Positions 13,025-54,810 of a DNA stretch of 64,000 nt are shown in pieces (position 1 is the stretch's first letter; every line of letters starts with the position of its first letter). This stretch comes from Planctomycetaceae bacterium (GTDB taxonomy: Bacteria > Planctomycetota > Planctomycetia > Planctomycetales > Planctomycetaceae). Location: assembly GCA_021732415.1 (NCBI GenBank), contig JAKFVC010000136.1, positions 1 to 64,000 of the forward strand, written 5' to 3'. The notes beneath the pieces were generated by a model that was given only the letters and a program-made list of their open reading frames with translations, was not told the DNA's origin and did no database searches. The position numbers and the translations under genes are program-made.

Positions 13025-14476
13025 CTAATTGCCGGCGCGCGGTAAAATCAGAATGATTTCGGCCCCTGGGCCGGTTCGCTGCCCCACACTAATGTGACCT
13101 CCATGGGCTTCGACAATCCGCTTGACGATGGCCATCCCTAAACCCGTGCCTTGAGTCTTTGTCGTAAAAAAGGGCTCAAAGATGCGCGTGGCTTGAGTCG
13201 CATCCAGTCCGGGGCCGCTATCACAGATGCGAACTTCGAGAGAATCGCGGCCGGCGAAGTTCGAATCACCAACGCGAATCAAGACTTCATCGCCTGATCG
13301 GCTGACGTACATCGCGTTCTCAAATATATTGCGGAAGACCTGTTCCAACGCGTTGGGGTCGGCGAGGCATTCGAAATTGTCCGTGTTGAGATCCTCTCCC
13401 AGATTCAACAATTTGTCGGCGCGCGCCACCCCCAGGTTATTCCAAGTTTCGCGCCAGATGCGATCGATGGAACACGATTCCCGGTGCAGTGCAATCGGGG
13501 CCGCATAACTACGAACTTCTTCGTACAGATGATGCAGGTGTTTTTGAGCGCGCTGGATTCGCTCGATGATTTCCAAGGCATCAGGTTGATTCTGAAATTC
13601 GTCCTGCAGCAACTCCAATCCCGCCTGGCTCCGTTGCAGCGCATTTCGACTTTCGTGAGCGAGCCCCGTAACCATCTGGCCGATGGCCGCAAGTCGTTCT
13701 GCCTGCATCGTGCGATGTTCCAGGCGACGGCGTTCTGTCACATCGTGTCCAGCGCAGAGAACCACAGGCGATCCTTCGAAATCCTTCAGCAATCGCGCGT
13801 TCCACACAATCCACCGCTCGTCCCCATTCGGATGTCGAATCGGAAGTTCCTGTTCGGTTGCAGCTTTGCCGTGATGGATCTGTTCAAGCTGGCGTCGTAG
13901 TTTTGAGGCCGATTCGCCGTGTACCAGTTCAAAAATCGATTTACCGGGCAGGTCGATTGCAGGTCGACCAGTCATTTCTGCGGCGAACCGATTGGCGTAG
14001 ATGATCTTGTGGTCATGGCCAAGAATGACGACCGCCAGATCGACGGCTTCGATGAGCTCACGAAAGTTCGCTTCACTACGTTCCTTGGCGTGACGTAGTT
14101 CGATTTGCTTTGCAGTTCGCGTCAAGCTGGCGCGCAGGACATCAGCATTGATGGGTTTAATGATGTAGTCAGCTGCGCCCCGTTTCAGAGCGAGGATCGC
14201 ACTTTCGACGTCAGCGTGGCCCGTGACGACGATGATATCCGCTCCCGGCATCACTTGCTTCAAGCGAGGAATGAACTCTTCGGCATTCCCATCCGGCAAG
14301 CGGCGATCAGTCACGATAACGGAAATTGTCCCCAGATCGTTCCTTGCCAAGGCTTCGTTGACCGATGCCGCCGTGACGACAGCGTGGGAATCCAGCTCCA
14401 ATATGTCTTGCAAATTGGCTTGTGTATCTTCGTCGTCCTCAATCACCAGGACTTTGAGACTGTTAGTATCAGGCAT
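13025..14476 (-). CDS. REC-PAS-histidine kinase
   Basis: A 483-residue hybrid protein. An N-terminal receiver (KVLVIEDDEDTQANL, phospho-Asp in VIVTDRRLPDG, IIKPI) is followed by a PAS domain at about 140-255 (ELIEAVDLAVVILGHDHKII). The transmitter has H-box GLAHESRNALQRSQ, N-box FRNIFENAMYVS and G-boxes DSGPGLD and GTGLGMAIVKRIVEAHGG. There is no membrane segment, so it is cytoplasmic and probably receives a phosphate as well as sensing a ligand through PAS. It converges with the NtrC-type gene and lies 55 bases downstream of a double-receiver gene, forming a local phosphorelay. Confidence 0.92.
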   Translation of the reverse strand: MPDTNSLKVLVIEDDEDTQANLQDILELDSHAVVTAASVNEALARNDLGTISVIVTDRRLPDGNAEEFIPRLKQVMPGADIIVVTGHADVESAILALKRGAADYIIKPINADVLRASLTRTAKQIELRHAKERSEANFRELIEAVDLAVVILGHDHKIIYANRFAAEMTGRPAIDLPGKSIFELVHGESASKLRRQLEQIHHGKAATEQELPIRHPNGDERWIVWNARLLKDFEGSPVVLCAGHDVTERRRLEHRTMQAERLAAIGQMVTGLAHESRNALQRSQAGLELLQDEFQNQPDALEIIERIQRAQKHLHHLYEEVRSYAAPIALHRESCSIDRIWRETWNNLGVARADKLLNLGEDLNTDNFECLADPNALEQVFRNIFENAMYVSRSGDEVLIRVGDSNFAGRDSLEVRICDSGPGLDATQATRIFEPFFTTKTQGTGLGMAIVKRIVEAHGGHISVGQRTGPGAEIILILPRAGN

Positions 14477-14531: not shown

Positions 14532-15284
14532 TCACGCAGAGTCGGGTGGTAAAGATGTGGTCAGGCGCTGCAAAGTTGTCAGCAGTTCGGCCATCTGAAA
14601 TGGCTTGTAGCAAACGGCGTCGGCGCCAGCCCCGAGGGCGCTCTGGATTCGTTGTTCCATTTCCTGGCGGTGGCCCGTAGAGAGTACGACTCGGACCTGG
14701 TCAGAAATTCCACGCACCTTCGCGCAAACTTCGTCGCCAAATCCGCCAGGCAACCGCATATCAATCAGCACGACTTGAAATTCCGACCCACGCACGCAGC
14801 GGAGCGCTTCATCGATCTCGGTCGCAAAATGAACGCGATAACCTTGATCTTGCAACAGGTCCGTCAAGGAATAACAGAGGTCCTCGTCATCCTCAATCAG
14901 TAGTACCAGTGGCTGCCGGGACGCTTCGGACAGACTGGGAATGACATGCTGCAAATCAAGAGGTTTGGAAAAGACCCGCCAAATGCCGTCTCGCTGAGCA
15001 GTGGCCAGCGTGTCTTGATTTGCGTAAGCGGTGGTCAGGATCAAGATTGTCGAACATCGCTGTTCTTTGAGCTTGCGAGCCAGCGTCAGGCCGTCCATGC
15101 CCGGCATTTTCAGATCGAGTAAGGCAATGTCATAGTTCTTCTCCTGTGCCATTTTCAATGCGACGAGGGGATCGGTCGCAATGTCGACCTGATAACCCAG
15201 ATCGGTCAAAATATCGCCCAGATTTTGTCCGGCATCGTGGTCGTCATCGACAACCAAGATCGAGTGCCCGCTGTTTTTCACCAT
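14532..15284 (-). CDS. Tandem double-receiver protein
   Basis: A 250-residue protein made of two receiver domains and nothing else. The first has SILVVDDDHDAG, phospho-Asp in IALLDLKMPGMDG and VFSKPL. The second has VLLIEDDEDLCYSL, phospho-Asp in VVLIDMRLPGGFG and VCYKPF. Both keep the acidic pair, the acceptor aspartate and the lysine. With no output domain it is best explained as a phosphate shuttle or sink between kinases and regulators encoded nearby. It lies just upstream of the REC-PAS-kinase on the same strand and probably shares its transcript. Confidence 0.9.
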   Translation of the reverse strand: MVKNSGHSILVVDDDHDAGQNLGDILTDLGYQVDIATDPLVALKMAQEKNYDIALLDLKMPGMDGLTLARKLKEQRCSTILILTTAYANQDTLATAQRDGIWRVFSKPLDLQHVIPSLSEASRQPLVLLIEDDEDLCYSLTDLLQDQGYRVHFATEIDEALRCVRGSEFQVVLIDMRLPGGFGDEVCAKVRGISDQVRVVLSTGHRQEMEQRIQSALGAGADAVCYKPFQMAELLTTLQRLTTSLPPDSA

Positions 15285-15901: not shown

Positions 15902-16315
15902 TCAACCGTTCTCCGGAAAGCGGCGATTTAAATCACTGATAAAGCGCTTAATCTGGCCGACACCCTCGCGATGAATCCCGGGGAACCACTTGGCGAACGA
16001 CCGTTCCAATGGACTGAAGGTTTTGGGCCAGATCACGAGTGCTCCGGCAATCAGCATTGGTGCGTCGACCGGCCCCGGCAGAAGAATGCCTGCGATGCCC
16101 AGTGCCATTAACATCGTGCCAATTTCAGTTGGCAGCTTTCCGAGCATTTCGATGTAGTGCTCTTCTTCTTGTTCCGGGGTTTCGGCACCATCGTCCGAGC
16201 AGGTCTCGGAGGGGACAACGGGGGCAAGGAGCGCGCCAGTTGCATCGGAAGCGGGCGCTACACAGCAGGGAGTATCCTGGGTACTGACGATCATGTTATC
16301 CTTCGCTAGGCTCAT
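15902..16315 (-). CDS. Small membrane protein, PGPGW-like
   Basis: A 137-residue protein with an acidic, low-complexity N-terminus (about 1-60) and a hydrophobic helical pair around MLMALGIAGILLPGPVDAPM and IAGALVIWPKTFSPLERSFA. The LLPGP turn and the LxWPKxFxxLExxFAKW end resemble the PGPGW putative transmembrane family, of unknown function. It is the last gene of the minus-strand run headed by the P-type ATPase-like gene, 27 bases after the 70-residue gene. Assignment is tentative. Confidence 0.65.
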   Translation of the reverse strand: MSLAKDNMIVSTQDTPCCVAPASDATGALLAPVVPSETCSDDGAETPEQEEEHYIEMLGKLPTEIGTMLMALGIAGILLPGPVDAPMLIAGALVIWPKTFSPLERSFAKWFPGIHREGVGQIKRFISDLNRRFPENG

Positions 16316-16342
16316 TGAGGTCAGCCTTTTGAATCAGGACCT

Positions 16343-16555
16343 CTAGGCCGACGGAGCCGCCGCTGGTTCGTAGGATGACAACAAACCACTATCTGCCAGG
16401 CTGCACAAATAGGCCATGTCAAAAGAATGTTCTTGATCGATGATACCCACAATTTTTCTCAGCCGTTCGCGGTCCTGACGTACCTTGAAACCAAGATATG
16501 TCACTGCGACCACAGCCACGAGACCAAACAACGCCGTGCTAAATGATTCATTCAT
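16343..16555 (-). CDS. Small single-span membrane protein
   Basis: A 70-residue protein with one N-terminal membrane helix (TALFGLVAVVAVTYLGFKV) followed by a charged stretch and an alanine/proline-rich end. I do not recognise a family. It is supported by its operon position: 55 bases after the 164-residue gene and 27 bases before the PGPGW-like gene. It may be an accessory subunit of the neighbouring ATPase-like membrane protein. Confidence 0.6.
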   Translation of the reverse strand: MNESFSTALFGLVAVVAVTYLGFKVRQDRERLRKIVGIIDQEHSFDMAYLCSLADSGLLSSYEPAAAPSA

Positions 16556-16610
16556 GTTTCTACTCCATGTGGAATTTTCAAATCAGATCCCGCCGTCCCG
16601 CCGTCCCGCG

Positions 16611-17105
16611 TCACGCGGCCCCGAACTCGACGAGATGTGCTGTGCCCTCGCCAATCAGATCGATCAGTCCTTCGAATGTTTCGCGATGACCGCTTTCTCG
16701 CACAGCCTTCGTCATCAATTCAGCACGCGACATCAGCGCCATCTGCACGCCCCATTTCAGCAACGCCACCGCCGTTTCGGGGTCTTTAACGACACCAAAA
16801 CAGAGGCGAAAACCGAAACCTGCCGCCAGGTTCCGCTGGGCTGCGCCGCGATCAATTACGACCATGATGGGAACTGCCGCAACCAGGCTGTAATGCAGCT
16901 TCAAGTAATCGTGTGCCTGATCTTCGTTCAATACGTAGAACCGATGATCGCGCAGCAGCGAGGCGACAACTGGCAGATTGCTTTCAATCGCTTTGCTTAC
17001 CGCCGATTGCCATCCGGCGCGAATGTAAAACACATCCAGTACGCGTTGGGGCGGATTGGATTCCAGCAGCGGGGTCGCAGTTGCATCACTCATGATGATT
17101 CTCAA
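16611..17105 (-). CDS. Hypothetical protein in the ATPase-like operon
   Basis: A 164-residue protein not assigned to a family. It has no signal peptide; a moderately hydrophobic stretch (LHYSLVAAVPIMVVIDRGAA) and a GFGFRLCFGVV segment are seen, with a helical C-terminal half. ATG at 17105; a second ATG at 17093 is equally possible. It starts only 15 bases after the P-type ATPase-like gene, so the two are surely co-expressed. Its function is open; a physical partner of the ATPase-like protein is the simplest guess. Confidence 0.7.
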   Translation of the reverse strand: MRIIMSDATATPLLESNPPQRVLDVFYIRAGWQSAVSKAIESNLPVVASLLRDHRFYVLNEDQAHDYLKLHYSLVAAVPIMVVIDRGAAQRNLAAGFGFRLCFGVVKDPETAVALLKWGVQMALMSRAELMTKAVRESGHRETFEGLIDLIGEGTAHLVEFGAA

Positions 17106-17120
17106 TCAGAGGTTTCATTG

Positions 17121-19502
17121 TTAAACGCCGATTGCCGCCGGAGCTGATACCGGATCAGCACCGGCACCTAGGAATTGACTCATCGCGCGAGTCAGTTCCA
17201 GTTGGGCTTCTTTCTTGGCCTGTTCATTCAGCATCCGATAGAGCGGCAACATGCCATTCGCCAGTGCCCCTAACGCGGCCACATTATTGGTCAGAACTGA
17301 TGCCATGATCCCAAAGCCCATCGTGAACGCCCCCAGAATACAGAACGCGTTCGGGGCGAGGATCATGTACCAGCTGCGTCGGACGTTGCGATCGAGGTCG
17401 CTGGCGATGTCACGCAGTTCACACAGGCGGTGCAGGCTCGCCTCCATAAACACGATTTGTGCCGTGTCGGTCGCAATCGAAGACGCACCCCGCAGGGAGA
17501 TCGACACATTCGCCTTTTTCAGCGCAATCGAATCATTGATACCATCGCCGACAAAGCAGACCTTACGCCCCTGCTTCTGCAAGCGCTCCACATAGTCGGC
17601 CTTGTCGCCTGGCAGCACTCCCGCAAAGTATTCGTCCATCTGCAAGCTTTCCGCAAGCTTCCGGGTCGGGCCTTCGTGATCGCCGGAGATGATGGCAATG
17701 TGTTTGATGCCTCGTGCCCGCAGTCCCTTGATGATCTCGACAACCTCCGGCCGCTGCGGAATCAGCGTGCTGGTCTTATCGAATAGCACCGTATCAATAT
17801 CGTGCATCAATTCCAGAGCACGGCCATCCTTCACCAGAATCCCCTTGCTGGCACACAGGGCGAGCGACGTTAACATCGCCAGCGGGGCCGCCATGCGGAT
17901 CCCCGTACCAAAGTCGCGGTTCAACACTGCCACGGCACCTTGCGGCCCCAGCGTCGCCAGTCCCAGTGCAGACAAAGCCAACGTAGGAACAACCGCCCGA
18001 TCGGCCATCTTTTCGCCTTTGTACTGGCTGCCCAGCTTGTAACCTGCCGAGTCTTTCAGGATCTGGGCAATCTTGGCAGAGGCGGTGTCGGTTCCCGCTT
18101 TCTCCACTTCGACAAACACTTTGCCGGCCACCGTTAGCGTACTGGCGAACACTCGGTCGCCGGCGGCTTTCTCCGTGGGAGTCGACTCCCCAGTCAATGC
18201 GTGCTGGTCGACCATCGCCAGACCTTCTTTGACGAGGCCATCGACGGGGACAGACTCCCCCGTATGGACAACGATGACATCACCCGGATGCAAGTCTTCC
18301 AACGAGATCTCGACTTCGTGACCATCTTTCCAAAGTTTGACGAATTGCGATTGCTTGCCGAAGGCCTGGATCAGCAGGCGTTTCGAGTCGTCCTGGGTCT
18401 TCGCGACCAGCATCCTCCCGAAGCTCAAACACAAGCCGAGCACCGACCCCGCGAAAATCTGCCCCGTGATTACGCAGCCCGTCACGACGATCGCGTCCAG
18501 GATATCCACGCCGAGGCGCCATTCATGGACCGCGACGTGGAAGGCACTTTTGAAGGTCGTGATCGACGTAAATAAGTAGAGCGCGCCAGCCACCGGCAGT
18601 AGCACAGGGAACATGAACTGTGTCAGGGCCGCCAGGGGAACCGACGTGACTGCGAGCGGGAAATCCAAGTCGAGCGGGTCCAATTCCGGCGGGATCTCGG
18701 TTTTCGCGAGGGCCCGCTCGATGATCGTCAGCACCTGGTCTCGGCGTAGGGCGCGAGTGTTGTACTTCAGGACCAGAGTACCCCGGCCGGGGTGCATGTG
18801 ATACGAATCGATCCCCAGGACGCTCATCAATTCGCGTTCAATTGCCTGACAGACGCTTTTCCGCCGATACAGAAACGGATGCTTGAGCTTCATGCGGCCA
18901 GGAACTTCCTGCAGCATCTGCCACGGCTGATGCTGGATCTGGGCCAGTTGCGACGCACGGCTGGCCGAGCGACTCGGCGGCGTTGAAACAGTGGGCTCGA
19001 TGGTCGGCAGCAATGCCTCGAAGTCGGGTTCACGCCGCGCCGGTAATCGGTTCCGTGCGTTGTGACCGTGAGCCCCATTTCCATTCCCGTTTCCATCGGA
19101 ACCTCGAGTTCCAGAGGCCGTTCTGGGGGCGATGAGGGCCGCAGTCGTTGGACCAGGGGATCCGAAGTTACCATCGATCCCAGCACTCAGATTGAGCGAC
19201 TGCTTCGCATTCTCGCGAGATCGAGCAAGCGGGGCGGCCTCGACTCCGTTGATCTTTCGCAGCCGGCTGGACACAGCGCGCAGGAATGCCACTGCCGAAG
19301 TCCCCGAGTGCCGTATCTCGGCGACATGCGGCGCGTCGGCGGTTGTTCCGAGTATCACTGAGACTTGAGCCCGTGGATCAGCGTCGAGCACACACGCCAA
19401 GAAGGCATTCGTCGTGGAACCTTTCAGGTCACCAAACAACGTTCTGCTCTGGATCCGCAGTCGGCCCGCTCCTGGACAAGTAATCGCAACGTCGTTCATC
19501 AC
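17121..19502 (-). CDS. P-type ATPase-like membrane protein lacking the N domain
   Basis: A 793-residue protein built like a heavy-metal P1B ATPase but altered. Two HMA-like domains are visible (around residues 10-90 and 195-265, the second starting VPGRMKLKHPF), separated by a Gly/Asn-rich linker. Membrane helices start near 285. An actuator domain carries ALTGES (436-441). The phosphorylation site reads FDKTSTL (574-580) instead of DKTGTL. Only about 30 residues later comes ISGDHEGPT (605-613), so the nucleotide-binding domain, normally over 100 residues at this point, is absent. GDGIND (652-657) is kept. The usual Cys-Pro-Cys metal site is replaced by a RMAAPLAML stretch without cysteine. 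ATP-driven transport is therefore doubtful; a chaperone, sensor or phosphatase role is possible. It leads an operon of small unknown proteins. Confidence 0.85.
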   Translation of the reverse strand: MMNDVAITCPGAGRLRIQSRTLFGDLKGSTTNAFLACVLDADPRAQVSVILGTTADAPHVAEIRHSGTSAVAFLRAVSSRLRKINGVEAAPLARSRENAKQSLNLSAGIDGNFGSPGPTTAALIAPRTASGTRGSDGNGNGNGAHGHNARNRLPARREPDFEALLPTIEPTVSTPPSRSASRASQLAQIQHQPWQMLQEVPGRMKLKHPFLYRRKSVCQAIERELMSVLGIDSYHMHPGRGTLVLKYNTRALRRDQVLTIIERALAKTEIPPELDPLDLDFPLAVTSVPLAALTQFMFPVLLPVAGALYLFTSITTFKSAFHVAVHEWRLGVDILDAIVVTGCVITGQIFAGSVLGLCLSFGRMLVAKTQDDSKRLLIQAFGKQSQFVKLWKDGHEVEISLEDLHPGDVIVVHTGESVPVDGLVKEGLAMVDQHALTGESTPTEKAAGDRVFASTLTVAGKVFVEVEKAGTDTASAKIAQILKDSAGYKLGSQYKGEKMADRAVVPTLALSALGLATLGPQGAVAVLNRDFGTGIRMAAPLAMLTSLALCASKGILVKDGRALELMHDIDTVLFDKTSTLIPQRPEVVEIIKGLRARGIKHIAIISGDHEGPTRKLAESLQMDEYFAGVLPGDKADYVERLQKQGRKVCFVGDGINDSIALKKANVSISLRGASSIATDTAQIVFMEASLHRLCELRDIASDLDRNVRRSWYMILAPNAFCILGAFTMGFGIMASVLTNNVAALGALANGMLPLYRMLNEQAKKEAQLELTRAMSQFLGAGADPVSAPAAIGV

Positions 19503-19745: not shown

Positions 19746-20156
19746 CTAAGTGGGGGCCAATGCCACTGCACCAGTTTCGGCGACCAGCAGATCTTCCGGC
19801 GATTTGGTGGCCGCGGGATTGGTTGTGATGGTCCGTGTGAACCAGGCATCGACCTTGGACGACGCGTCGGAGCTGCCGGCGATCAATCCACGTACGACGG
19901 GATTGTTTTTTGGGATGTAATGACAGACGAAAAAGACCGGAAAACAAACGCCAAACGACAGCGTATAACCAGTCGCGTAGACGAACTTCTCGGCGAATTT
20001 GACTGGTCCGGAGACTCCACAGGACACCCACGCGGTAAGAACCCGGCCATTGGTCTGCCCGTTTGCCGAGCTATTCAAATGATCGGCCGTGGCGTCCATC
20101 TGGTCTGCACCTTCTGTCAGGAAGTCCGAGATGGGCTGTGCGTTTTCCGTTTCCAT
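19746..20156 (-). CDS. Hypothetical protein with a hydrophobic centre
   Basis: A 136-residue protein of unknown family. The N-terminal 40 residues are polar, the centre (FVYATGYTLSFGVCFPVFFV) could be one membrane helix, and the C-terminus is Ala/Thr-rich. It lies 243 bases upstream of the ATPase-like gene on the same strand and may belong to that group. The start at 20156 is the only good ATG. Coding status is likely but not certain. Confidence 0.55.
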   Translation of the reverse strand: METENAQPISDFLTEGADQMDATADHLNSSANGQTNGRVLTAWVSCGVSGPVKFAEKFVYATGYTLSFGVCFPVFFVCHYIPKNNPVVRGLIAGSSDASSKVDAWFTRTITTNPAATKSPEDLLVAETGAVALAPT

Positions 20157-20679: not shown

Positions 20680-21945
20680 TTAGTGGGCCGGTGGGCTGAC
20701 GGGGGGCACTGCGGCGGGCAACCGGAGTTCGAAAGTGGCACCTTGGCCGGGGGGGCTGGTGGCGGTTAACTTTCCCCGATTCCGTTCCACAATCGAGCGT
20801 GAAATCGCGAGTCCCAGGCCAATTCCCCGCGCCTTGGTCGTGAAGAAGGGCTCCATGACCTGGTGCAGAAGTTCTGGCGGAATTCCGTGCCCCGTATCGG
20901 TGACCTGGAAATTCACATGCCCATTCACCTGGCTGAGCGTGATCGACAATACGCCACCATTCGGCATCGCGTCGCGGGCATTGTGAATCAGATTGGCGAT
21001 GACGATCCGAATCTGATCTTCGTCCCCTTGGGCGTGTGGCAGATCGGGGGAACACACCAATTGTACTTGAATCGAGGGGGGGAGTGCGGCATCTTCGACT
21101 GCCCGTCCGATGCAGGCTTCGGGAGAAAATGTTTGCAAATTCGGGTTCGGAAGTTTCGTGAAGCTGGAGAGTGCTGCAATCACATTGTCGGCGACTTCGA
21201 CTTGTTTCCCGATGCGTTTCAAGTGCTCAGCCAGTTTCTCTGGTGTGACCAGACGCGCATTCTGCAGGAAGTACACCGAGGTCTTGATGACATTCAGCGG
21301 ATTTCGCATTTCATGAGCGATGCCGCCTGTGACTTGCCCTAAGGCTGCAAAACGCTCGGAACGCTGTAACTTGGCGAGGTATTCAGACTGATACGCACTC
21401 GTAATGATCGCAAATTCGAGGTCGAGTAGCTTGCGCAGCGAGGCTAACGTTTTTCGCAAATCCTCCTGGGTTCCCGTCCAGTTCTGCTCCAGCAATTCGA
21501 CCAGCCGGCCGCGCATGCGAGATAACGCGGCGTCGGCATAGAGTTGATCGAGTCCGATCTCGACATGGCGATAACCGACCTTCCAGCGTCGTAGAATGTA
21601 CTCCTGCTCGTAGGGTCCGCTCAGCAGCTCACGCACCCAGGCGTGTAATGTCCGCTTCAACCGTTCGATCTGTGCTGTCCCGCCGGTGATGACCTTTACA
21701 GCTTCCGGAAACTGCTCGATTGTGGAATAGAAGTCTTCGATCACGGGCCCGAGATGGGGCAGCAGGACCGTCTCAGCGGCCCTGACGTGGGACGCATCGT
21801 CCTCCTGCCAGCCGATGTATCGCTGCAATGTCTTGTATCGTTCAACGATCAGAGCCGTGTCCACGTGTGTTGCTTTCTTGGTCAGGTCGGGCAGAGTCTG
21901 GATCTGCTTTAAGTGAGCTTGCAGATCTCGATGACGCTCGGGCAA
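20680..21945 (-). CDS. Globin-coupled sensor histidine kinase
   Basis: A 421-residue soluble kinase. Residues about 25-185 form a protoglobin-type sensor: YIGWQEDDASHVRAAE, VIEDFYSTIEQFPEAV and WVRELLSGPYEQEYILRR, then VGYRHVEIGLDQLY, whose histidine is the expected proximal haem ligand. The kinase follows with H-box GGIAHEMRNPLNVIKTS, N-box LIHNARDAMPNGG, DTGHGIPPE and GIGLGLAISRSIVERN. Globin-coupled kinases sense oxygen (or NO/CO) through haem. Here it is the most direct oxygen sensor in the window and is a good partner for the NtrC-type regulator or the double receiver. A decayed copy of its 3' end lies at 15615-15745. Confidence 0.9.
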   Translation of the reverse strand: MPERHRDLQAHLKQIQTLPDLTKKATHVDTALIVERYKTLQRYIGWQEDDASHVRAAETVLLPHLGPVIEDFYSTIEQFPEAVKVITGGTAQIERLKRTLHAWVRELLSGPYEQEYILRRWKVGYRHVEIGLDQLYADAALSRMRGRLVELLEQNWTGTQEDLRKTLASLRKLLDLEFAIITSAYQSEYLAKLQRSERFAALGQVTGGIAHEMRNPLNVIKTSVYFLQNARLVTPEKLAEHLKRIGKQVEVADNVIAALSSFTKLPNPNLQTFSPEACIGRAVEDAALPPSIQVQLVCSPDLPHAQGDEDQIRIVIANLIHNARDAMPNGGVLSITLSQVNGHVNFQVTDTGHGIPPELLHQVMEPFFTTKARGIGLGLAISRSIVERNRGKLTATSPPGQGATFELRLPAAVPPVSPPAH

Positions 21946-36608: not shown

Positions 36609-36929
36609 ACATGCTCCTTCGCTGTGCGTTCCTGTCACACACGTTGCTCGCACAGTGTGGCAATTCCGCTCACTTCAGACCGCGCGTTCCGCTGGGTGAC
36701 ATCTACAAACGCGGCTGCGTGTGAAAATATGACTCGAGATCATTCGGCTTTGGCCCATATTCCGTGTGATGATTCCGGCTCCCCTGAGAAGACTTTTGCT
36801 TGCTCCGCAGTACGGTCCGGAAATTGCGTTTCTGGTTTTGACTGAGCGTTGGACGTCGCCAATTTCCCATGAACTTGCTGCAACGCATTCAACGCGTGCT
36901 GGATCTGGAAACTTTGCGGAAGTGTGCTC
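36609..36929. other. Control region of the P2-type ATPase gene
   Basis: About 320 bases without a gene. It has inverted half-sites CTGTGCG (36622-36628) and CGCACAG (36649-36655), related to the GTGCG palindromes, and a sigma-54 match at 36813-36828. Confidence 0.5.
36813..36828 (+). promoter_or_regulatory. Sigma-54 promoter for the P2-type ATPase
   Basis: CGGTCCGGAAATTGCG keeps GG-N10-GC and TTGC but has a poorer -24 element. It lies 102 bases before the start codon at 36930. Confidence 0.45.
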
Positions 36930-39626
36930 ATGTCGTCACCGTCGCCTCAACTGCCTTGGCATGCCGAAACAACCAGTGCCGCCATGGCGGCGCTGAACAC
37001 ATCGCACGACGGGCTGTCTGACGATGAAGCGGCCGCGAGACTGGCGCTGCACGGCCTGAACCGCTTGCCCGAGTCGCCCCCCACGCCGCTCTGGCGGATT
37101 GTGCTGCGGCAGTTCTTGAGCCCAGTGATCTACATACTCGTCGTAGCGGCCGTTGTGTCCGCGGTGATCGGCGATCCTCAAGATGCAGGTTTCATCGCGG
37201 CCGTCCTGATCATCAATGCGGTGATTGGCAGTTACCAGGAATGGCATGCCGAGCGTTCCAGTCAGGCGTTGCGGAAATTATTGAGTTTCAATGCACGGGT
37301 CACCAGGGGAGGTGCCGTTCGGGAAATTCCGGCTGAGCACGTTGTTCCCGGTGACGTTGTCTGGCTGGAATCAGGGAATCGCGTCCCGGGAGACATGCGA
37401 ATTCTCCACGCTCAAGGGCTCGAAGTTGACGAGTCGATGCTGACGGGTGAATCGCGCGCTGTGGCCAAAGACCACACCTGGCAGGGGGAACATTCAACGC
37501 CAGTGTCTGACCGATTGAACATGACACTCGCTGGTTCCATGGTGATGCGTGGCCGCAGCCAGGGACTGGTCGTGGCGACTGGCCTGCAGACGAATATCGG
37601 CCAGCTGGCCCAAGACGTCGCGGCTGCTACCGGCGGCCAACCCCCACTCGTCGAGCGCATGCAGCGGTTCACTAACTTTGTGGCAGTCGGCACGTTGGGG
37701 CTCTCCATATTTATTGGTAGCCTGGCGATGCTGGTATCGCATTATTCCTTGTTGGAGACCTTCTTTTTGGTTGTGGCATTAGCAGTCTCTGCCATACCGG
37801 AAGGGTTACCAGTGGCGATGACGGTCGCCTTGTCGGTTGCCACCATCCGCATGGCCAAAAGGAACGTCATCGTACGACGATTGACCGCCGTAGAAGGTTT
37901 GGGAAGCTGCACTTTCATTGCGACGGATAAGACGGGCACGCTGACTTGCAATGAGATGACCGTGTGTGAGATGCGGCTGGCCGATTGCGCCAGGGTGGAG
38001 ATCACGGGTGAGGGCTTCACGCCACACGGTGAGGCCTTTCTCGACGCTCAGCATCAGGATGCTGCGAGTCGACAATTGTTGGAATCGGCGGTGCGAACGG
38101 GTGTGCTTTGCAATGAAGCGGATCTGCATCAAAGGTCGGATGGTGAATGGGGCTATCATGGGGACGCAGTCGATGTCGCACTACTGTGCCTGGGACACAA
38201 GCTCGATTTGATTCGCCAATGCCTGCTGGAAACGCATCCTCAAGTCGCCCAGATTCCATTCGAGCCCGAACATCAATATGCCGCCTCCTATCACCGCGAC
38301 GGGGGACACATTGCCATTCACGTCAAAGGCAGTCCGGAACGGGTGCTGGCGATGTGTGATACGGCGGTGCCTCCAGAAGGTCGCCACGTACTGGACGAAC
38401 TTGTCGCAAGTATGACACGCAAAGGATTGCGAGTATTGGCACTGGCGACTGGCGAATTGTCCGGCGAGTTGAATCCGAGTCATACGCTGCCGCCACCGTC
38501 CCATCTGAGATTCCTCGGATTCGTCGGGTTGATTGATCCATTACGTCCTGGGGCCAAGGAGGCCGTGCGACATTGCCGCGACGCTGGCGTCACTGTCGCG
38601 ATGGTGACCGGTGACCATCGCGAGACTGCTACCGCGATAGCACGTGAACTGGGACTTGTTGAGACTGACGACCAGGTGATGACGGGGCCAGAACTAGAGA
38701 AGTTGTCCGAGGATCAGTTCCTGCAACAGGTCCGCTCGGTGCGGGTCTATGCGCGAGTCTCACCGCGGCAGAAGCTGGAAATTGTCAATGCCCTGCGTCG
38801 CGCCGGCCACTATGTCGCCGTTACGGGTGATGGAGTCAATGATGCACCGGCTCTGCGCGCAGCGAATATTGGCGTCGCCATGGGGCGGATGGGAACGGAT
38901 GTCGCACGGGAGGCGGCCGACCTGGTCATCAGCGACGACAACTTCGCATCCATCGTGGCGGGGATTGATGAAGGTCGGATTGCGTACGACAACATTCGTA
39001 AGGTGGTGTTTCTGTTGACGTCCATGGGCGCCGCAGAGTTGCTGATGGTGCTGCTGGCCGTCGCGACAGGTACCCCCATGCCACTGTTACCGGTCCAATT
39101 GTTGTGGCTGAATCTCGTTACGGACGGCATTCAAGGTGTCGCCCTCGCTTTCGAGCCCGGGGAAGGTGACACCTTGCGTCGATCGCCACGGTCTCCACGC
39201 GAATCGATATTTGACCGACTCATGGTCGAACGAATGGCTGTATCGGTTTGTGTCGTGGGCATCGGCGGTTTCCTGACGTTCTTCAGTGCGTTGCAGCTCG
39301 GTTTCTCGACTGACGAGGCACGCAATTTACTCCTGCTGGTGTTGGTGCTGTTCGAAAATATTCATGTGGGAAACTGCCGCTCGGAGACCAAGTCGGCATT
39401 TGTACTATCGCCGTTCCGCAGCCCTATTCTGTTAATTGGCACATTAGCTGCATTATTGATGCACGTTGCCGGAATGCACGTCCCGCTCCTGCAGCATGTC
39501 CTGCACACGAACCCGGTAAATACCGCCGTGTGGTGTGTCGCGTTGTTAATCGCACTCACGATCGTGCCCGCGATGGAGCTGCATAAGTGGATCTGGTCGC
39601 GTCGCAAGGATGCGATTCGATCGTAG
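36930..39626 (+). CDS. P2-type cation-transporting ATPase
   Basis: An 898-residue P-type ATPase of the calcium/sodium (P2A-like) class. It has the N-terminal cation-ATPase domain (LSDDEAAARLALHGLNRLPE), actuator motif MLTGES, membrane helix motif VSAIPEGLPVAMTVAL, phosphorylation site DKTGTLTCNEMTV, an intact nucleotide-binding domain, TGDHRETA and GDGVNDAPALRAANIGVAMG, then four or more C-terminal helices. All catalytic residues are present, unlike the ATPase-like protein at 17121. Mycobacterial CtpF of the DosR regulon is a comparable hypoxia-linked pump. I prefer the ATG at 36930 with GGAAG upstream over the GTG at 36924. Followed by USP genes. Confidence 0.93.
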   Translation: MSSPSPQLPWHAETTSAAMAALNTSHDGLSDDEAAARLALHGLNRLPESPPTPLWRIVLRQFLSPVIYILVVAAVVSAVIGDPQDAGFIAAVLIINAVIGSYQEWHAERSSQALRKLLSFNARVTRGGAVREIPAEHVVPGDVVWLESGNRVPGDMRILHAQGLEVDESMLTGESRAVAKDHTWQGEHSTPVSDRLNMTLAGSMVMRGRSQGLVVATGLQTNIGQLAQDVAAATGGQPPLVERMQRFTNFVAVGTLGLSIFIGSLAMLVSHYSLLETFFLVVALAVSAIPEGLPVAMTVALSVATIRMAKRNVIVRRLTAVEGLGSCTFIATDKTGTLTCNEMTVCEMRLADCARVEITGEGFTPHGEAFLDAQHQDAASRQLLESAVRTGVLCNEADLHQRSDGEWGYHGDAVDVALLCLGHKLDLIRQCLLETHPQVAQIPFEPEHQYAASYHRDGGHIAIHVKGSPERVLAMCDTAVPPEGRHVLDELVASMTRKGLRVLALATGELSGELNPSHTLPPPSHLRFLGFVGLIDPLRPGAKEAVRHCRDAGVTVAMVTGDHRETATAIARELGLVETDDQVMTGPELEKLSEDQFLQQVRSVRVYARVSPRQKLEIVNALRRAGHYVAVTGDGVNDAPALRAANIGVAMGRMGTDVAREAADLVISDDNFASIVAGIDEGRIAYDNIRKVVFLLTSMGAAELLMVLLAVATGTPMPLLPVQLLWLNLVTDGIQGVALAFEPGEGDTLRRSPRSPRESIFDRLMVERMAVSVCVVGIGGFLTFFSALQLGFSTDEARNLLLLVLVLFENIHVGNCRSETKSAFVLSPFRSPILLIGTLAALLMHVAGMHVPLLQHVLHTNPVNTAVWCVALLIALTIVPAMELHKWIWSRRKDAIRS

Positions 39627-41541: not shown

Positions 41542-41612
41542 CACGACATTCTGCTATCGGACCAAACAGAACGATCGACTCACTGCTAGCGTTGCGCCAT
41601 AAGAGGTCATTA

Positions 41613-43286
41613 ATGGCAATTCAGTCACCAATCGTCGTGGCAATTGACTTTAGTCCAGCCAGCCCTGCATTGATCGCCTATGCCTGGTCCTTGGCGGAGC
41701 TGGAGGGCCGTGAAGTCCACTTTTTGCACGTCGTACCGCGTGCAAAGTGGGCTCAGGATACCTCGGCGCAGTCGCAGGCGGATGTGGTCCAGGCTCTGCA
41801 ATCACTGACCGGCTTGCCTCCGGGAGACGGAGGCAGGCTCGTCACATTCACTCACCAAGTGCGGATTGGATCACCCGCCCGGGAAATCATCACTTACGCC
41901 AAGGAGTGTTCTGCCGGTACGATTCTGATCGGTACTCGGGGACGCAGCCGGCTGGTCAATATGGTCCTGGGAAGCGTCGCCCAAGCGACTCTGCGGGACG
42001 CCCCGTGTCCGGTCCTGGTGGTGCCCGATTCATGTCTGGTAGGTCCCGCGGCGGATGGATTTAGCCCGCCATCTGAAGCAGTCGACCCGGCCGAGGAGTC
42101 ATTTGCGATTGAAGGACACAGTGGTTCAGGCCCAGATGCGAATCGCGTGATCGAGTTACTCCGGCGAGCCATTCAGTGGCGGGCGACTGACGTGCATATC
42201 GATACGGTCGGGGCGGATCGCGTGTGGATTCGATTCCGCGTCGATGGAAAGCTTCAAACCTTTTGCCATCTCGATCAGAATCTCGCGGCTCCGCTCTTAA
42301 TGCAATTAAAGCTGATGGCCGATCTCGACACGACCCAGACATTTGAGCCACTCGAAGCTCGACTCAAGCTGCCACCGGCACTGGGGGGTATCGAGGTTCG
42401 CGTGACAATCGTTCCGGCGTGTGAGGGAGATGCAGTCGCCTTACGTCTGTTGAAGCACGAAGCAATTCCGCGTCCTTTGGGGACATTAGGAATGTCGGAA
42501 GCCACTCTGTCCTCGGTCGAAACGATGCTGCATCATCGTCCGGGGTTGGTGTTAGTGACCGGACCGACAGGTACTGGCAAAACCACGACGGTGTATGCGA
42601 TGCTGCAAGCCTTGGGGGCAGGGGACCATAACATCGTGTCGATTGAAGACCCCGTCGAATACCGCGTCCCCGGAATTCGGCAGCTCAGTGTCAATGCACG
42701 CCATAACATGACTCTGACTCGCGGCTTGAAAACACTCTTACGGATGGATCCCGACGTCGTCTTTATTGGCGAGATCCGTGACGTTGAGGCCCTCGAAATT
42801 GCGGTGCGGGCCAGCAGCTCAGGGCGGTACGTGTTCAGCACGCTTCATACGCGAGATGTGGCGTCCACGGTCACCGTGTTGCGTGATCTGCACGCGGATA
42901 ACTATTCGCTCGCCGCGAATCTCACAGGCATCGTCAGTCAGCGGCTGATCCGGTGTCTTTGTCGAAACTGCCGTGTTGCCGCACCAATCACCCCGGATGA
43001 GCAAGCCGTCTTCCACGCCGAAGACCTGGAGCCACCCGTCGAGCTATTCCAGCCGCGTGGTTGCAGTGCATGCAAACAATCTGGTTTCCATGATCGAGTT
43101 GGGCTCTTCGAGGCCGTTGTCGCCAACAGTGAATTTGTCGCTGCCATTCAAAGGGGAGCGGCGGAAGACGAGTTACGCCAGGTGATTCGTGCCACTCAAT
43201 TTCGCAGCATCCATTATGACGCGCTGACAAAGGTACGTGACGGTATTACCAGTCTCAGCGAAGTCGATGTTCTCAGTTGGATGTAA
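41613..43286 (+). CDS. Universal stress domain fused to a GspE/PilB-type ATPase
   Basis: A 557-residue fusion. Residues 1-145 are a USP domain (IVVAIDFSPASPALIAYAWS, then GTRGRSRLVNMVLGSVAQ and CPVLVV). After a short linker, about 175-557 form a type II secretion/type IV pilus assembly ATPase: RRAIQWRATDVHID, Walker A GPTGTGKTTTVY, Asp box IEDPVEY, Walker B VVFIGEIRD, His box FSTLHTRDVAST. A four-cysteine zinc motif has CLCRNC and CSACKQSGFHDRVGLFE. The usual N-terminal GspE/PilB docking domains are replaced by the USP domain. No other pilus or secretion genes are nearby. Start chosen at the ATG at 41613 behind AAGAGG. Confidence 0.9.
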   Translation: MAIQSPIVVAIDFSPASPALIAYAWSLAELEGREVHFLHVVPRAKWAQDTSAQSQADVVQALQSLTGLPPGDGGRLVTFTHQVRIGSPAREIITYAKECSAGTILIGTRGRSRLVNMVLGSVAQATLRDAPCPVLVVPDSCLVGPAADGFSPPSEAVDPAEESFAIEGHSGSGPDANRVIELLRRAIQWRATDVHIDTVGADRVWIRFRVDGKLQTFCHLDQNLAAPLLMQLKLMADLDTTQTFEPLEARLKLPPALGGIEVRVTIVPACEGDAVALRLLKHEAIPRPLGTLGMSEATLSSVETMLHHRPGLVLVTGPTGTGKTTTVYAMLQALGAGDHNIVSIEDPVEYRVPGIRQLSVNARHNMTLTRGLKTLLRMDPDVVFIGEIRDVEALEIAVRASSSGRYVFSTLHTRDVASTVTVLRDLHADNYSLAANLTGIVSQRLIRCLCRNCRVAAPITPDEQAVFHAEDLEPPVELFQPRGCSACKQSGFHDRVGLFEAVVANSEFVAAIQRGAAEDELRQVIRATQFRSIHYDALTKVRDGITSLSEVDVLSWM

Positions 43287-52271: not shown

Positions 52272-52465
52272 ATCAACAGGTTGAGACCCCAGCCAGCGCA
52301 GATCCTGACAGTCCCACGGCGGAAGGGCGGTTCCACTCCTACCGTACGAACGTGATTCCACTGGCAGTCTATCTAATTTGGATCCTGTTCTGGATTGGTG
52401 CAGTCTACTACTTAGTGAACTATATGCTGCCGGCATTGCGAGTCGAGTTGGTCACGCCACCATGA
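52268..52465 (+). CDS. Small single-helix membrane protein of the cbb3 operon
   Basis: A 65-residue protein with one central membrane helix (AVYLIWILFWIGAVYYLV). Its size and place suggest a CcoQ/CcoS-like accessory subunit, but the sequence alone does not show which. It overlaps both neighbours by four bases (ATGA), which is strong evidence that it is translated. Confidence 0.72.
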   Translation: MNQQVETPASADPDSPTAEGRFHSYRTNVIPLAVYLIWILFWIGAVYYLVNYMLPALRVELVTPP

Positions 52466-54810
52466 TCACGGCTAAGTGCGAATTTTGTGGTCTGCCGGTC
52501 TCCGCCCCGCGCGGAGCGGTTGCGGAAGGGAAGCCGCAACCTGTCTTTTGCTGCTTTGGCTGCGAGTTTGCCTCCGAGGTGACTCGGTCATCGGGACCAG
52601 AGGGGGCGAGTCGAATCCTGTTGCTGAGGATTGGGCTCGCTGCATTCTGCACCATGAACGTGCTGGCATTCACGATGGTCCTGTGGACTCACGATGTCTA
52701 TCCGGGGACGCGCGATGCGCGTGCAATACTGCTGGATGACGTCCTGCGGTATCTCGGATTGTTGTTCAGCCTGCCCGTGTGGTTTGTCCTGGGGCAACCG
52801 TTGCTGCTGAGTGCCGTCAGTCGCCTGCGCCGCGGGTTTCCAGCGACCGACTTATTGGTGTGCCTGGGGGTCATCGCGGCCTATGGGTTCTCGATCGCTT
52901 CGACCTGGCGTGGATCGGGGGCTGTATACTACGAAGTGGCGTGTGTGATCCTGGTGTTGATCACCCTGGGACGGTGGCTAGAGTCCCAGGGCAAGCTGCA
53001 AGCGACTTCGGCATTAGATGATCTAGGGCGGCTGCTACCGGAAATGGTACGCGTGCGGTTCATCGATCCGGAGCGTTTGATTCCTCTATCAGAGGTGCGC
53101 GTTGGCGATCACCTTCTGCTGAACCCCGGAGACTGCATTGGCGTGGATGGCGTCATTGCAGCCGGCCGCGCTCTTATTGATCAACGTCTGCTGACGGGAG
53201 AAAGCTGCCCGGTCGAAATGCGGGTCGGCGATGCTGTTCGCGCGGGGGCATTCAATCTCGACGGACATCTGGAACTCACCGCGAGTTCTACGGCCGAAGA
53301 CGGAAGCTTAGGGCGACTGGTTCGCAGCCTGCGTGAGGCGCGCCAGCACCGTGGTGCTTACGAGCGACTCGCCGAGAACGCAGCGATGTGGTTTCTGCCG
53401 GCGATCATCGTGGTGGCCCTTGCGACTATCGGTTGGCACGGTTGGTACTTTGGTTTCGAAACAGGGGTCATGACTGGCTTATCAGTGTTATTGATTGCCT
53501 GCCCTTGCGCCTTGGGCCTGGCCACGCCGTTGGCGGTCTGGACGGCGTTTGGCTGTGCGGTTCGACATCAGGTATTGTTTCGTAGCGGCGAGGCCATCGA
53601 ACGCCTGGCCGGAATCAAGGCTCTGGCCTGGGACAAGACCGGAACTTTGACCACTTCTGAACCGTCGATCGAGACGGTCGTCTGGTCGAGTGAGCCGGTG
53701 CCTGCCAACTTTCTATCCGATCTGCTGACTTTGGCCAGGCGGTCTAATCATCCATTCTCACACGCTGTAGTGAATTCATGGGGGCGATCGATCGCATCAA
53801 CTGAAGATCTGCTCGAAGTGAACGAGCACCCGGGCCGCGGAATGGTCGGACAATGTTGGAACGGAAAATTGATCTGTCTTGGCGGCCAACAATTGATCGA
53901 CGACCTGGGGATCTGCTGGCCGGGACACTTGCGTGCCACGTGGCGGCAGCTTGTCGCCGATTGCAAATCGGTCGTGATCGGGGCGAGCGATGGGGTTGTG
54001 CAGTGCATCATCGTCATTGCAGAATCGTTGCGGCCGGGTGCCGCCGATACCGTCTACCAATTACAAACCCTGGGAATCCACCAGCAGCTGCTGACCGGGG
54101 ATCATGTCCCGCGAGCCGCCAGACTGTTGGAGCAAGTGTTTGCCACGCGCCAGGCTGGCCGCTACCAGAAGTCGATGAGTCATCGGCATTCGCATCCTGA
54201 TCTGCTGGGATCATTCACCTTTCGGGCCGAACTTTCGCCATCGCAAAAAGCAGGAGCGATCTGTGCATTAAGACTGCAGCACGGGCCAGTGGCGATGGTC
54301 GGTGACGGCGTCAATGATGCTCTGGCGTTGACCGAGTCGGATGTTGGCATTGCCCTGCAATCGGGTGCCGATATCTCACGTGATTCCGCGGCCGTGTGCC
54401 TATTTGGTGATGACCTTCGCCGCGTGCCGTGGGCGATTGAGTATGCTCAATTCACGGTGCGAATTATTCGACAGAATCTGGCCTGGGCATTCGGCTACAA
54501 CGCGATCGGAGTGGCTTTGGCCGCCGCCGGGTATCTCAATCCGAGTCTGGCCGCGGTGCTGATGGTGGGGAGCAGCGGCTTCGTCATTGCGAACACATGG
54601 CGTCTCCATCGAGGAACCTCCGATTCAATCGATGAATCTTCTGCGACTGCCAGTTTTACTCCGCAGTTAGATTCTCATGTTCTGGACTCATGCATTCGGC
54701 CTTCACCATTGCTGGATGGGGCTATGAGTCAATCGTTAGCGGGTATTGATTCAATCAACGAACTTAGTGTTGATACGACTCGTGTACCGGAACAATCCAG
54801 TGTCGCTTGA
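52462..54810 (+). CDS. ccoI: Copper-transporting P1B-type ATPase, CcoI-like
   Basis: A 782-residue copper ATPase used to supply copper to cbb3 oxidase. The N-terminus has cysteine pairs (CEFCGLP and CCFGCEF) typical of CcoI. Other motifs: actuator LLTGESCPVE, metal site LIACPCALGLATPLAV, DKTGTLTTSEP, a full nucleotide-binding domain with the SNHPFSHAVVNS histidine motif, and VGDGVNDALALTESDVGIAL. A long C-terminal tail of about 65 polar residues follows the last helix. It starts inside the stop codon of the 65-residue gene. Confidence 0.93.
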   Translation: MITAKCEFCGLPVSAPRGAVAEGKPQPVFCCFGCEFASEVTRSSGPEGASRILLLRIGLAAFCTMNVLAFTMVLWTHDVYPGTRDARAILLDDVLRYLGLLFSLPVWFVLGQPLLLSAVSRLRRGFPATDLLVCLGVIAAYGFSIASTWRGSGAVYYEVACVILVLITLGRWLESQGKLQATSALDDLGRLLPEMVRVRFIDPERLIPLSEVRVGDHLLLNPGDCIGVDGVIAAGRALIDQRLLTGESCPVEMRVGDAVRAGAFNLDGHLELTASSTAEDGSLGRLVRSLREARQHRGAYERLAENAAMWFLPAIIVVALATIGWHGWYFGFETGVMTGLSVLLIACPCALGLATPLAVWTAFGCAVRHQVLFRSGEAIERLAGIKALAWDKTGTLTTSEPSIETVVWSSEPVPANFLSDLLTLARRSNHPFSHAVVNSWGRSIASTEDLLEVNEHPGRGMVGQCWNGKLICLGGQQLIDDLGICWPGHLRATWRQLVADCKSVVIGASDGVVQCIIVIAESLRPGAADTVYQLQTLGIHQQLLTGDHVPRAARLLEQVFATRQAGRYQKSMSHRHSHPDLLGSFTFRAELSPSQKAGAICALRLQHGPVAMVGDGVNDALALTESDVGIALQSGADISRDSAAVCLFGDDLRRVPWAIEYAQFTVRIIRQNLAWAFGYNAIGVALAAAGYLNPSLAAVLMVGSSGFVIANTWRLHRGTSDSIDESSATASFTPQLDSHVLDSCIRPSPLLDGAMSQSLAGIDSINELSVDTTRVPEQSSVA

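Follow-up and report, generated by a model that had tools for sequence, protein, structure and literature searches.

The P1B-like ATPase homologue A', encoded in the window (the whole stretch of 64,000 nucleotides analyzed here), is probably a recently disabled metal pump, i.e., a young dead-pump allele that is tolerated because the genome still has an intact paralogue, A, on contig C267. In this account A' would descend from a complete P1B-like metal-pump paralogue through one in-frame deletion of 369 nt in the window's lineage, which, as comparison with the syntenic orthologue shows, fused motif I directly to the remaining HAD-type P domain. The product would still be translated and inserted into the membrane with a compact P domain, its loss of function would be tolerated because the C267 paralogue remains, and it would now be drifting or serve at most as a passive or inhibitory membrane subunit. 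Database annotation would call A' a metal-transporting ATPase, which the known mechanism says it cannot be.

The features on which this reading rests are collected in Table 1. The frame of A' contains zero internal stops, as the preliminary description of this DNA had stated; it opens with a GTG at 19502, followed at codon 2 by an ATG, which serves as start in the orthologue of the same-genus genome G003. Motif I reads DKTSTL (residues 575–580) and the SGDH motif follows 31 residues after D575, so the earlier observation of a missing N domain was borne out, with 2 residues left where the orthologue has 125. Of the features expected of a catalytic P-type ATPase, the A-domain TGE(S) and the P-domain GDGxND are present, again as described earlier, whereas DKTGT is altered by G578S (17769–17771) with D575 kept. 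The HAD catalytic set of D575, SGDH, K634, and GDGIND is complete. Pfam detects E1-E2_ATPase in A', and its match to PF00702 (HAD hydrolase) covers profile positions 99–191 only, while the paralogue and orthologue match positions 1–191.

Table 1. Features of the A' gene and its operon, in window coordinates.
Feature	Coordinates	Strand	Basis
A' gene, N-less homologue of P1B-like ATPases	17121..19502	(-)	793 codons
First N-terminal ferredoxin-like (HMA-like) domain, residues 5-85	19248..19490	(-)	AF2, inferred
Second ferredoxin-like domain, residues 195-267	18702..18920	(-)	AF2 and HMA_2 (PF19991), below gathering score
Actuator-domain TGES, residues 437-440	18183..18194	(-)	sequence
TM4 site N528-R-D-F-G-T-G	17901..17921	(-)	alignment with homologues
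Motif I, DKTST replacing DKTGT	17766..17780	(-)	alignment; codon comparison
Deletion junction, I581/P582 and overlapping RPEV repeat	17743..17762	(-)	alignment with orthologue
P-domain SGDH, residues 606-609	17676..17687	(-)	sequence
P-domain GDGIND, residues 652-657	17532..17549	(-)	sequence
g164, conserved operon protein, 164 aa	16611..17105	(-)	AF2, thioredoxin-fold-like without CxxC
g70, small conserved protein of the operon, with one probable TM helix	16343..16555	(-)	comparison with relatives
PGPGW-like small membrane protein, conserved operon member	15902..16315	(-)	PF09656, below gathering score
g136, small protein conserved upstream of the pump gene at most related loci	19746..20156	(-)	locus comparison

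The AF2 model of the whole of A' was built with 22 homologues and is poor overall (mean pLDDT 57.7), so that only its P domain and N-terminal domains are used here. The preliminary description had proposed structure prediction for the P domain, and residues 571–671 are indeed modeled as alternating strands and helices resembling a HAD core, with a pLDDT of ~66–82 over residues 571–650 and lower values beyond; with moderate confidence, the P domain of A' may still fold as a compact HAD core. The HMA-like domains that had been reported to remain hold up as two ferredoxin-like N-terminal domains in the model and less well in Pfam. Residues 5–85 are predicted as E-E-H-E-E-H and return no Pfam match, while residues 199–268 match PF19991 (HMA_2) at 24.3 bits, below the gathering score of 30. 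Neither domain contains CxxC, the mark of CxxC-type metal binding in P1B pumps.

It is the comparison with relatives that defines the deletion. In G003 the syntenic orthologue (on contig C574, also JAQGHS010000472) retains the complete N domain and reads DKTGTL, is 84 and 93% identical to A' across the two sides of the gap (83–96% by segment), and differs from it by a single exact in-frame gap of 369 nt, or 123 codons. BLASTN of A' against G003 likewise returns two pieces (80.9 and 81.4% identity) separated by 369 nt found only in G003 and overlapping at 17743–17758 in the window. The two ends of the orthologue's N domain carry direct repeats, imperfect in sequence, that code for RERPEV and SQRPEV: G003 reads ACG TTG ACT CGA GAG CGA CCT GAG GTC on the 5' side of the missing piece and GCT TCG CAG CGG CCC GAG GTC on its 3' side, while the window's junction reads GAT AAG ACC AGC ACG CTG ATT CCG CAG CGG CCG GAG (I581 at 17760–17762 and P582 at 17757–17759). 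This arrangement suggests that slippage or recombination between the two repeats made the deletion.

When a single genome from each of 84,980 species was scanned, 24 relatives were recovered. All 23 of the other homologues that align over the deletion region keep the N domain and DKTGT, and A' groups with the A-family proteins on the protein tree. The preliminary description had suggested a new class of membrane protein; since the orthologue and every homologue with the region keep both the N domain and DKTGT, the aligned sequences indicate that the N-less A' is a deletion of one lineage and no class. The search for homologues with the same deletion and neighbors gave a divided answer, in that the neighbors are conserved and the deletion recurs in none of the 23 homologues with the region, orthologue included. 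A survey of 392 genomes of the phylum found the family in only 2, a count that is insensitive because 2 candidates were scored per genome. The close paralogue A on contig C267 (L009 3128–5854), which is 55–84% identical to A' by segment, also has the full N domain and DKTGTL. Three window residues are private changes in otherwise invariant columns (A294T, G578S, and T581I), and the junction accounts for two of these; among the 24 aligned sequences G578S is private to the window, as is S529R at the TM4 site.

The metal-site Cys-Pro-Cys is gone as had been noted (A' reads NRDFGTG), although its absence is unlinked to the loss of the N domain, as complete members also do without it. Nearly all complete homologues read N[SC]DFGTG or NCDLGTG at TM4, with one DLGTA (summarized as N[SC]D[FL]GT[GA]), and thus the P1B-type Cys-Pro-x is missing from them as it is from A'. 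Judged from this alignment, lack of the CPC characterizes the family; it predates the loss of the N domain and is unconnected with it.

The gap could also be an artefact of assembly or consensus, with reads misjoined across strains or between the repeats and a real gene that has its N domain, and the preliminary description had itself named a sequencing deletion at 17670–17785 as a concern. The assembly is a draft of 350 contigs and imperfect repeats do flank the gap, which speaks for an artefact, yet the repeats are too short and too diverged for simple collapse: those of the orthologue share only ~7 identical consecutive bases, far below an assembly k-mer. The gap is moreover exactly in frame, G578S and T581I border it, the other P-type ATPases within the window are complete, and neither a second copy nor a leftover fragment of the missing N-domain piece was found elsewhere in the assembly. 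We therefore regard an artefact as improbable. A separate N-domain protein encoded elsewhere, the other circumstance named earlier that would have changed the picture, can be rejected as far as this 98%-complete assembly goes: a genome search that used the N domain of the orthologue gave matches only inside full-size P-type ATPases and revealed no stand-alone N domain that could act in trans.

P-type ATPases use their N domain to hold ATP against the aspartate of the P domain, and ATP-driven phosphorylation is not expected once the N domain is lost. With the N domain gone and DKTGT changed to DKTST, ATP would not be positioned to phosphorylate D575, and we infer from this known mechanism that the A' product cannot run an ATP-driven pump cycle. 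Capless HAD phosphatases exist, and one might therefore imagine A' as a working pump or phosphatase in which another phosphoryl donor (acetyl phosphate or Pi) acts directly at the exposed P domain. The retention of D575, SGDH, K634, and GDGIND would suit such a role, but DKTST and the private S529R at TM4 are absent from complete homologues and there is no sign of selection for a new activity, which makes this the least probable of the explanations we consider.

The substitution record describes a protein that has been under strong past constraint. Pairwise comparison of A' with the G003 orthologue gives a dS of ~0.83 and an omega of 0.094, and the P domain shows 4 non-synonymous vs. 49 synonymous differences. 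When amino-acid changes in the conserved core, beyond about residue 182, are polarized with outgroups, 23 fall on the window branch vs. 6 on the G003 branch, and the protein tree gives the window a branch of 0.16 vs. 0.042 for G003. The C267/C710 paralogue pair is also unequal on that tree (0.03 vs. 0.014), and with this 2:1 ratio as baseline the window-branch excess is not significant (binomial p = 0.17). An author-built codon model, limited by saturation on deep branches, gives a core omega of 0.067 for the window (range ~0.04–0.07) and 0.012 for G003, values that do not differ significantly in a likelihood-ratio test (p = 0.11).

Free drift since the deletion is bounded at no more than ~4% of the branch for the P domain and ~6% for the core. 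As P-domain drift can span so little of the branch, two readings are left, a young deletion or a protein under continuing constraint, and the selection data fit both. Since so brief a drift period would bring ~1 nonsense change, the missing stop is weak evidence. The preliminary description had read the intact frame as speaking against simple decay and had suggested a substrate-binding or signaling derivative of a pump; such a retained function does not follow, as a young deletion also gives an intact frame and a low dN/dS. Taken together, the interpretation of A' as a disabled pump is favored by the N domain of the orthologue and the 23 homologues, the lack of a second copy of the missing piece or a stand-alone N domain in the genome, the private changes, the excess of core changes, the longer window branch, the tight drift bound, and the intact A on C267. 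Against it weigh the open 793-codon frame, the low core omega of the window branch, an acceleration that does not reach significance, and the conservation of g164 and g70 next to A'.

These neighbors bear on a further explanation. The small genes reported as coupled to the pump (15902–17105) do form a conserved operon in relatives: g164, g70, and the PGPGW-like gene stand downstream of A', and g164 and g70 are 87 and 96% identical to their G003 counterparts, so that the window locus as a whole is not decaying. A fold search with g164 returns thioredoxin-like structures, with Z no higher than 7.6 and a best Foldseek E of 0.013; given also that g164 has no CxxC, this is too weak for us to name the protein. 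The Schlesneria-type gene order is g136, A, g164, g70, B, PGPGW, and a 138-aa protein, the last of which is known from related operons but was looked for in the window with no success. In the window's genus this ancestral operon is split, with g164 and g70 but no B at the window locus, and with A and B but neither g164 nor g70 at the C267 locus (L009); g164 and B are each single-copy in both genomes of the genus.

B is a second P-type-ATPase-like protein in tandem with the pump, seen at L009 6064–8412 on C267 and at 16 related loci. None of these 17 members has an intact DKTGT, TGES, or GDGIND, and the N region is lost or shortened in the Planctomycetaceae members. B is nevertheless conserved between the genomes G000 and G003 (omega 0.125), and catalytic A and dead B are paired across several planctomycete families. 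B is a conserved pseudo-P-type ATPase and probably more interesting than the window gene; a complex of A and B, if one forms, would join a P-type ATPase to a pseudo-enzyme from its own superfamily. A partial literature search found no description of such an A/B pump pair.

By analogy with B, the N-less A' might be a retained pseudo-pump subunit, that is, a non-catalytic (heteromeric, metal-binding, or regulatory) partner of the C267 A. Related operons usually pair a catalytic A with a catalytically dead yet conserved B, its presumed partner; the two halves of the split operon (g164 and g70 at the window locus, B at C267) are complementary; the P domain is modeled as a compact HAD core; and omega is low. 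The fact that G003 has the split too, with a complete catalytic A' at the same locus, means that the split needed no N-less protein. A' also keeps most catalytic residues (TGES and GDGIND among them), unlike B and as a young loss predicts, and no relative was seen in which an N-less A' has been kept over time. We consider a retained subunit rather unlikely, though it is the main rival to the disabled pump and deserves more weight than an artefact. Its stronger form, in which the N-less A' is a new pseudo-pump selected as a non-catalytic subunit that completes a split A/B metal-transport system in trans, seems a little more doubtful still; if true, A' would show in progress how the old B pseudo-P-type ATPases came about.

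As the single deletion allele that we take it to be, A' matters little beyond annotation. It is also a clean natural deletion of the N domain only, and hence a ready construct for questions of folding, metal binding, and pump interference.

The surroundings of the operon contain several other genes. A histidine kinase with an N-terminal protoglobin domain (20680–21945) lies just upstream, and a response regulator (14532–15284) and a receiver-PAS-kinase hybrid (13025–14476) lie downstream. The interval 22939–54810, which encodes a Crp-like cNMP-binding protein, HypF, an ADP-forming acyl-CoA synthetase, and COX1, looks like a low-oxygen gene region. Two complete P-type ATPases are encoded in the window at 36924–39626 and 52378–54810, and the gene at 41592–43286 fuses a universal stress protein domain to a type II/IV secretion ATPase domain (PF00582 and PF00437).

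Among known systems, A' is closest to the P1B pumps (CopA, ZntA, and CadA). Its best TIGRFAM is TIGR01525 (heavy-metal P-type ATPase) at 2.6e-89, below the cut-off of that model, and among solved structures in the PDB it matches CopA and other P1B pumps for copper and zinc best. A domain, TM4, P domain, and GDGIND follow one another as in these pumps, whereas A' differs by the absent N domain, by DKTST, and by having neither CPx in TM4 nor CxxC in its HMA-like domains. We found no paper on N-less P-type ATPases in a literature search; the “P6 ATPases” are CtpE-like Ca pumps and are not N-less (PMC10654040).

Mycobacterial PacL proteins act as scaffolds that gather P1B pumps into platforms (PMC9374683), and the P1B6 and P1B6-like systems such as CtpC with PacL1 (PMC9374683) resemble the window locus in that a pump gene stands alongside genes for small membrane proteins. 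A conserved TNN stands at the last TM of A', the putative counterpart of the HN described for TM6 of P1B6 pumps. The small partners here differ in having no Pfam match to DUF1490 or DUF6110, TM4 reads DFGTG, and the window copy is N-less. By analogy the small operon proteins could play a PacL-like scaffold part, although they show no sequence match to PacL-type scaffolds.

The nearest comparison is with the C267 paralogue and the orthologue (L018 1223–3985), which share the architecture, operon context, and FGTG in TM4 of A' and differ in keeping the 123-codon N domain and DKTGT. The B family (L009 6064–8412 and 16 others) resembles A' in its HMA_2-like start, its A-domain fold, a TM4 of D[FY]xTG type in most members, and an N domain that is reduced or absent in the Planctomycetaceae members. 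It is, however, an old conserved lineage in which the catalytic motifs are lost in 17 of 17 members, whereas A' is of the A type and appears to carry a young, private deletion.
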